From Haloglomus salinum (GTDB lineage Archaea; Halobacteriota; Halobacteria; Halobacteriales; Haloarculaceae), in contig NZ_CP101153.1 in assembly GCF_024298825.1 (NCBI RefSeq), positions 3,224,001-3,288,000 of the forward strand: DNA of 64,000 nucleotides, given 5' to 3'. The notes beneath the pieces are model-generated. The model ran no database searches. It had not been told where the DNA came from and saw only the letters and a list, made by a program, of their open reading frames with translations. Below are positions 55,725 to 56,915 of this stretch, in pieces. Within the stretch, counting starts at the first letter, position 1. Each line of letters begins with the position of its first letter. The translations under genes were made by a program, and so were the position numbers.

Positions 55725-56915
55725 TCACCCGTCGGTGTCGTGTCGTAGCGACTCGTGGACCCCGACGACGAACGCCGGCACCACCAGCATGAACAGGTGC
55801 TCTTCGAGGGGGATGCCGAGCAGTTCGACGCCCGTTCGGAGCGGAATCGCGAAGACACCGACCTCCAGCGTGTACCAGTCCCAGAGGTACGCGAGCGGGT
55901 AGAGGACGACCACCGTCCGGGCGGCCGCCCGCCACGCGCCCGCCCGCCACAGCAGGGTGAACGCGCCCGTGCCGAAGAGCGCCTCCGTCGCGAGATAGGT
56001 GTACGGCCCCAGCACGCCGATGTCCGGCAAGGGGACGCCCGCGAGCGGCCGGAACCAGACCGCCGCCACGAGGACGGCCAGGAAGAGGTACGCACCCCGG
56101 ATGAGCAACATCGTTGCCAGTTCCGGGTCAGCGCGGGTCGCGAGCGCAGCCACGACGACGAACGGAACCGTCGCGAGTACGGCACCCGTCGGAAACAGGC
56201 CGTCGATGGCGAACGCGACCACGAGGAACATCCCGAGCCCCATCAGCCCGAAGGCAACTTCCCGACCGTGGCGGGGGCCCAGCGCCACCGCGACCGTCCG
56301 TTTCCCGATGGACCGGTCGTACAGCACGTCCGTCGTGTCGTCGACCACCTTCACGCCCGAGAGTGTGACCACGAACACGGCCGCGAACGCGAGCACCGCC
56401 GGCGAGAGCGTGCTCGCCTGCACGTAGAACCCGCCGAGAAGTGCCAGCGCGACGCCGGTCGGGTAGCCCGCCGTTGCGGTCACGGGGTTGGTGTCGAACT
56501 GTGGCGCGTGCAGGTAGCCGATGGCCCACCCCGGTACGGTCAGAAGCCCTGCGACCGGTCCGGCGGCAAGAACCACCGCCGCGAGCGCGAGTGCGAACCC
56601 GGCTGTCGCGCCGGCCAGCGCGAGCCGGCACCCCCGGGCCGTGAGCGGGTGGTCGTCGTCCTCGCTCCGGACGTGGAAGTCGACGTAGCCGTCCTTCAGG
56701 TGGGCCGTGTAGAGGCCGAAGAAGACCGCCACGAGGTGTGCGGCCAGCGCGAGTGGAGCGAGCGTCGCGTCGGTGGCACCGAGACGGCTCGTCACCGCGA
56801 GGAGGGCACCGAACGTGCTGGCGGCCAGCGGCGGCAGCATGAACACCGGATGGACCTGCGACCCCAGCGCGCGGAGCTTCGCGGTCGGGCCGGCGCCGTG
56901 CCGTGCGATTGCCAT
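55725..56915 (-). CDS. UbiA-type prenyltransferase fused to a lycopene-cyclase domain
   Basis: A 396-residue integral membrane protein. The N-terminal two-thirds is a UbiA prenyltransferase: first acidic motif KDGYVDFHVRSEDDDHPLT (74-92) and second KVVDDTTDVLYDRSIGKRTV (189-208), within about eight helices. The C-terminal part (about 270-390) has the heterodimeric lycopene-cyclase (CrtY-type) domain: YLWDWYTLEVGVFAIPLRTG and the conserved PLEE (369-372, GIPLEEHLF). The combination suggests a carotenoid or other isoprenoid elongation/cyclisation enzyme (inference). The GACTTTTCC box 28 bases upstream sets the ATG at 56915. Confidence 0.8.
   Translation of the reverse strand: MAIARHGAGPTAKLRALGSQVHPVFMLPPLAASTFGALLAVTSRLGATDATLAPLALAAHLVAVFFGLYTAHLKDGYVDFHVRSEDDDHPLTARGCRLALAGATAGFALALAAVVLAAGPVAGLLTVPGWAIGYLHAPQFDTNPVTATAGYPTGVALALLGGFYVQASTLSPAVLAFAAVFVVTLSGVKVVDDTTDVLYDRSIGKRTVAVALGPRHGREVAFGLMGLGMFLVVAFAIDGLFPTGAVLATVPFVVVAALATRADPELATMLLIRGAYLFLAVLVAAVWFRPLAGVPLPDIGVLGPYTYLATEALFGTGAFTLLWRAGAWRAAARTVVVLYPLAYLWDWYTLEVGVFAIPLRTGVELLGIPLEEHLFMLVVPAFVVGVHESLRHDTDG

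Follow-up and report, generated by a model that had tools for sequence, protein, structure and literature searches.

The joining of carotenoid elongation and cyclisation in a single protein has been described in Dietzia, where LbtBC is a characterised in-frame fusion of the cyclase subunit LbtB and the elongase LbtC (PMC6393565; PMC6669644). An earlier interpretation of the DNA studied here, made without database searches (the sequence-only reading), had described the elongase of characterised C50 routes as a protein apart from the cyclase subunits, a statement which the Dietzia protein contradicts. In Haloarcula japonica, crtD, lyeJ and cruF suffice for bacterioruberin (PMC8305020). UbiA enzymes, to which the elongases belong, have been reported to group by acceptor, as Hemmi (2004) is cited in PMC9385802.

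The window analysed, a 64,000-nucleotide stretch of the single-contig, 4.19 Mb genome of Haloglomus salinum (G000), carries a gene in which a UbiA-type prenyltransferase domain is followed by a lone CarR-type half-cyclase domain. Its open reading frame extends by translation from an ATG at 56915 to a stop codon at 55727-55725 on the minus strand, with the following features:

55725..56915, minus strand: complete fused gene, UbiA plus CarR-type half-cyclase; 396 aa (P0001), start codon kept in relatives
56046..56915, minus strand: UbiA-type intramembrane prenyltransferase domain, residues 1-290; PF01040 and MenA-type NCBIfam matches, UbiA fold
56646..56696, minus strand: first Asp motif, K74-D75-G-Y-V-D79 ... 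D86-D-D-H-P90; the 32 fused and 29 UbiA sequences all keep D75 and D79
56301..56351, minus strand: second Asp motif, K189-V-V-D192-D-x-x-D196-x-x-x-D200 ... K205; D192, D193, D196, D200 and K205 invariant in fused and separate copies
56025..56048, minus strand: inter-domain linker, residues 290-297 (8 residues); sole segment with pLDDT <50
55725..56024, minus strand: lone CarR-type (lycopene cyclase) domain, covering residues 298-396 and the stop codon; TIGR03462 / PF18916
55872..55883, minus strand: cyclase motif W345-D346-W347-Y348, invariant in fused copies; W-D-x-Y invariant in standalone copies
55791..55811, minus strand: cyclase motif P369-L-E-E-H-L-F375; fused and standalone copies alike keep P, E, E, H and F

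P0001 is a member of the UbiA prenyltransferase superfamily, with the UbiA fold and two Asp-rich motifs, and its C-terminal part is a CarR-type lycopene cyclase domain (TIGR03462), as indicated by its score and PxEE motif. This is the composition that the sequence-only reading had recognised, and it has been borne out by domain matches, by motifs and by the same fusion in approximately 39 further haloarchaeal loci, which also exclude a sequencing or assembly artefact. The two N-terminal Asp-rich motifs named there are present, with D75/D79 and D192/D193/D196/D200 invariant in 32 fused relatives, and its PLEE-containing domain corresponds to the P369 to F375 motif. A domain search of the kind proposed in that reading matched TIGR03462 (CarR_dom_SF) with 38.0 bits (E 1.8e-9) in a protein scan and 42.2 bits in a genome scan, the cut-off being 39.4, and PF01040 (UbiA), whose gathering score is 34.2, with 25.1 bits (E 1.3e-5). 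PF18916 gave 22.2 bits (E 2.1e-4) and did not reach its cut-off of 27, which is exceeded by two standalone relatives tested. As the scores of P0001 itself are modest, the identification of both domains rests on the families as a whole. Standalone homologues of its cyclase domain are about 100 aa long and 61-78% identical to it. Together with R360-T-G and H387-E388, further motifs of the cyclase domain, the Asp and cyclase motifs are nearly all invariant across the 32 fused relatives aligned; separate UbiA genes keep the Asp motifs, and standalone half-cyclases have P-x-E-E-H-x-F, R-T-G and H-E invariant, with the second W of WDWY variable. A related P-x-[EG]-E-x-x-F-type motif is found in both halves of CrtY. 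An AlphaFold model built with 32 sequences (mean pLDDT 88.3, pTM 0.70) consists of a UbiA fold and three C-terminal helices, the low-confidence linker leaving the placement of the domains relative to each other not fixed by the model. Foldseek matches (6m31, 4tq4, 7bpu and UBIAD1) are solved UbiA enzymes, comprising DGGGPS, the UbiA homologues from A. fulgidus and A. pernix, and UBIAD1; a sequence search of the PDB gave no match, and a structure search of viral structures gave no significant one.

The two parts also occur as separate genes. A scan of the genome collection returned full-length fusions from many members of the Haloferacaceae and from certain other genera, and copies of UbiA alone from Natrialbaceae, Haloarcula, Halorussus and further groups; among the genomes sampled, the family does not extend beyond Halobacteriales. 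In a control search, Haloferax volcanii gave no TIGR03462 match and so probably lacks the half-cyclase. The separate versions, a UbiA of about 285 aa and a half-cyclase of about 100 aa, are mostly distant from each other in the genome, with the half-cyclase gene often adjoining a CBS-domain gene. Among 97 related genomes, both parts are present in 72 (19 fused, 53 separate), UbiA only in 2, the cyclase only in 0 and neither in 23, and once the fused genomes are left out the corresponding counts are 53, 2, 0 and 23; the 53 include G034 (57% complete), in which the cyclase gene is just a fragment at a contig end. The UbiA-only exceptions are G063 (81% complete) and G007, which has a fast-diverging UbiA of 47-48% identity. 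The Fisher p of 2.7e-20 for all genomes ignores phylogeny and is not literal, the counts being inflated by shared ancestry. Nonetheless, joint presence or absence of the pair varies within genera g10, g21 and g34, which indicates that the association is not shared ancestry alone. A mirror-tree comparison of UbiA with the half-cyclase, run on 18 genomes and controlled with MenA and Lye, detected no co-evolution above the background of the genomes (partial r 0.15, p 0.13). In the Rosetta Stone sense, the fusion marks its two parts as a conserved module.

Linked arrangements of the separate genes have been detected as well. The two genes stand in tandem in Salinigranum and Halohasta, while in Halosimplex and its kin the half-cyclase gene, often divergent beside UbiA, retains a stretch that matches UbiA from about residue 213 onwards, which suggests decay of a fused gene. 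Genes of this type, whose N-terminus preserves remains of the C-terminal UbiA helices, are located at L098:5924-6487 and L064:5297-5836. In a quick tree with a plasmid-borne sister clade as outgroup, the separate genes are basal (Natrialbaceae) and four label changes occur, so that the fusion looks derived from separate genes; a single fusion clade is neither rejected nor shown (AU p 0.364). The neighbours are housekeeping genes (an aminotransferase, an Obg-type GTPase, a CBS protein), and gene neighbourhood was dropped as an uninformative guide to function. A gene for a benzoylformate-decarboxylase-like TPP enzyme (L124:6217-7905; L070:4181-5923) often lies head-to-head with the standalone UbiA in Natrialbaceae, and in that family only.

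The sequence-only reading had suggested elongation, as by a CrtEb/Lye-type elongase, for the UbiA part, and this identification is not supported. No match at E<=1 was obtained between P0001 and the Lye-family model NF009516, and in the tree P0001, its relatives and the sister clade form a 100/100 clade apart from the Lye clade. The proper Lye of the host, scoring 434 bits against NF009516, is encoded elsewhere in the genome and adjoins a crtI-like gene. MenA, DGGGPS and CtaB are also separate genes there, besides an orphan UbiA; the host MenA adjoins MenC/MenE-like genes. The labels CtaB, CtaA, MenC and MenE reflect our own reading of the sequences. An assignment of P0001 as MenA has likewise been rejected, with 29.7 bits against TIGR00751, below the cut-off of 102.15; the three best MenA-type NCBIfam models give 30-36 bits against cut-offs of 102-264. 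The P0001 clade is nonetheless placed on the MenA side (91/96), tentatively, given that the deep branches are long. Two further host genes concern the same superfamily: the orphan UbiA (L121:4982-6046, minus strand, 354 aa), which matches no curated NCBIfam family over cut-off and has a relative in at least one other haloarchaeon (L154), and a presumed heme o synthase (CtaB) with an N-terminal CtaA-like membrane part (L117:4551-6032, plus strand, 493 aa), of similar length in three other genomes.

Functional CarR-type lycopene cyclases comprise two different halves, in tandem or as CrtYc and CrtYd, and P0001 has one domain. Compared with the halves of 18 tandem CrtY proteins, the UbiA-linked CarR domain constitutes a third clade (SH-aLRT 98) on the CrtY C-half side (99); the C-half profile gives it 24-35 bits and the N-half profile 12-22. 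It is the only CarR domain found in 21 of the 72 genomes with the pair, 17 of these 21 having a completeness of 90% or more and three consisting of one contig; in those genomes there is therefore no CrtYc/LbtA-type partner, and the domain would act alone, as a homodimer or with UbiA. To our knowledge, no single CarR half is active alone. A link to retinal or rhodopsin by way of CrtY is not required, as the pair occurs without CrtY in 21 genomes and CrtY occurs without the pair in 12.

Judging from sequence and predicted structure, P0001 is rather probably a membrane enzyme of prenylation plus cyclisation, serving an accessory haloarchaeal isoprenoid that is neither bacterioruberin nor menaquinone. 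With Mg2+, the UbiA domain would transfer the prenyl group of an allylic isoprenyl diphosphate to a hydrophobic acceptor, and the C-terminal CarR-type half-cyclase would then protonate a terminal isoprenoid double bond, leading to ring closure. The fusion would hold both sites together in the membrane, and in most other haloarchaea the same two proteins would be separate, probably complexed. We infer catalysis by both domains, the order of the steps and the formation of a complex. From the coupled elongation and cyclisation that had been suggested earlier, coupling is kept as probable because the halves co-occur near-perfectly as separate genes, and Lye-type elongation is given up; the distinct isoprenoid product also suggested there fits, with its identity as a quinone or lipid left as a candidate. 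The housekeeping neighbours and the presence in G007 of a UbiA without half-cyclase count against this two-step model, as do the mirror-tree result and the inflation of the co-occurrence counts. A carotenoid polyene has nearly an even chance of being the acceptor, an aromatic or quinol acceptor is possible with a somewhat smaller one, and another lipid is unlikely. It is rather doubtful that the lone CarR half works without a second half, with UbiA as obligate partner, to yield an undescribed cyclic isoprenoid through coupled prenylation and ring closure.

Within this model, we tentatively consider that UbiA adds C5 to a lycopene-type end and that the half-cyclase closes this end into a ring, so that a minor cyclic C45/C50 carotenoid would accompany bacterioruberin. 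Carotenoid ends are the substrates of characterised CarR domains, and Dietzia LbtBC combines the same types of domain (PMC6393565), while the position of the UbiA outside the Lye clade, its failure to match NF009516 and the independence of the pair from CrtY argue against this. Particular genomes point in both directions. G007 (94% complete; L171) appears to be a haloarchaeon naturally free of carotenoids: phytoene synthase (crtB), CruF and CarR gave no match there, CrtI and Lye gave none over cut-off, and only a fast-diverging copy of the P0001-type UbiA has been kept; a carotenoid substrate for the cyclase is favoured by this single case. Conversely, the pair is present in G082, where a search for a crtB-type gene, crtI, lye and cruF found none of them, its one SQS_PSY match being called squalene-synthase type by length only, and this single case, 66% complete, favours a non-carotenoid substrate. 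It is less likely, though conceivable, that UbiA prenylates an aromatic acceptor and that the half-cyclase closes a ring in the tail, chroman-like or terminal, producing a modified quinone or meroterpenoid. The MenA-type models as best NCBIfam UbiA matches, the position on the MenA side and the clustering of UbiA enzymes by acceptor, as far as it is cited from Hemmi (2004) in PMC9385802, would agree with such an activity; the long deep branches weaken the placement. In the sister clade, all 7 plasmid members inspected (L123, L126, L127, L172-L175), from several haloarchaeal families, stand head-to-head with a gene for an AMP-binding ligase in islands of aromatic-catabolism type, the majority of which also contain ADP-forming acetate-CoA-ligase-type, cupin, FAD-monooxygenase or fumarylacetoacetate-hydrolase genes. 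An aromatic acceptor is thereby hinted at for the sister clade, not directly for P0001, and that clade is without a cyclase domain. We know of no CarR domain acting on a quinone.

The C-terminal domain could instead be a non-catalytic membrane partner that stabilises or positions UbiA, leaving prenylation as the only reaction. The construction of CarR cyclases from two different halves, set against the one present here and the 21 genomes with no other CarR domain, is consistent with this, but D346, P369, E371, E372 and F375, which have counterparts in CrtY, are invariant beyond what a scaffold would need, and a purely structural role appears improbable. A bacterioruberin-pathway lycopene elongase fused to a cyclase, a version of the elongation suggested in the sequence-only reading, agrees with the domain types only and is very improbable indeed: the bona fide Lye lies beside the crtI-like gene of the same genome, many Lye-bearing genomes have no pair, and bacterioruberin in Haloarcula japonica requires crtD-lyeJ-cruF only (PMC8305020). 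The prenylation-plus-cyclisation enzyme remains the reading that we prefer.

The module is found in about three quarters of the haloarchaeal genomes searched, nearly all of which carry their own Lye and MenA genes as well. If active, it would point to an undescribed isoprenoid common to much of the class, and the rule of two different halves for CarR cyclases would change. The fused and split versions constitute ready tools for tests of coupled prenylation and cyclisation. Concerning annotation, UbiA genes of the P0001 type should not be named 'lycopene elongase', nor the small half-cyclase genes 'CrtY'; the NCBI names for the parts are 'UbiA family prenyltransferase' and 'lycopene cyclase domain-containing protein'.

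No published description of the UbiA/half-cyclase pair was found in the open-access literature searched, and each known relative shares some of its features. LyeJ (NF009516/PRK12875) belongs to the same superfamily and occurs in the same organisms, but it falls in another clade and is a separate, co-present gene without a cyclase domain. MenA (TIGR00751, PRK06080) provides the closest curated UbiA models and has a similar second Asp motif followed by K-x-T, yet P0001 scores far below the cut-offs and the true MenA is elsewhere in the host genome. Tandem CrtY (a CrtYcd fusion) shares the TIGR03462 domain and related D and P-x-[EG]-E-x-x-F motifs; it has two halves, whereas P0001 has one, of its own clade, linked to UbiA and also present in genomes without CrtY. 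LbtBC from Dietzia sp. CQ4, which acts with LbtA in C50 beta-cyclic carotenoid synthesis, resembles P0001 in joining a single CarR-type domain and a UbiA in one polypeptide. However, its order is cyclase (1-134) then elongase (135-432) (PMC6669644), the reverse of P0001; it depends on LbtA as second cyclase subunit, to which nothing corresponds in the 21 pair-bearing genomes with no other CarR domain; and its UbiA is a lycopene elongase in a carotenoid operon, while that of P0001 belongs to a non-Lye clade and has housekeeping neighbours. On the grounds of domain order, neighbours and missing partner subunit, P0001 was rejected as an LbtBC-type fusion. The elongase-cyclase fusion as an idea is already known, and the haloarchaeal protein differs from it in domain order, in the absent second half, in UbiA clade and in genomic distribution.
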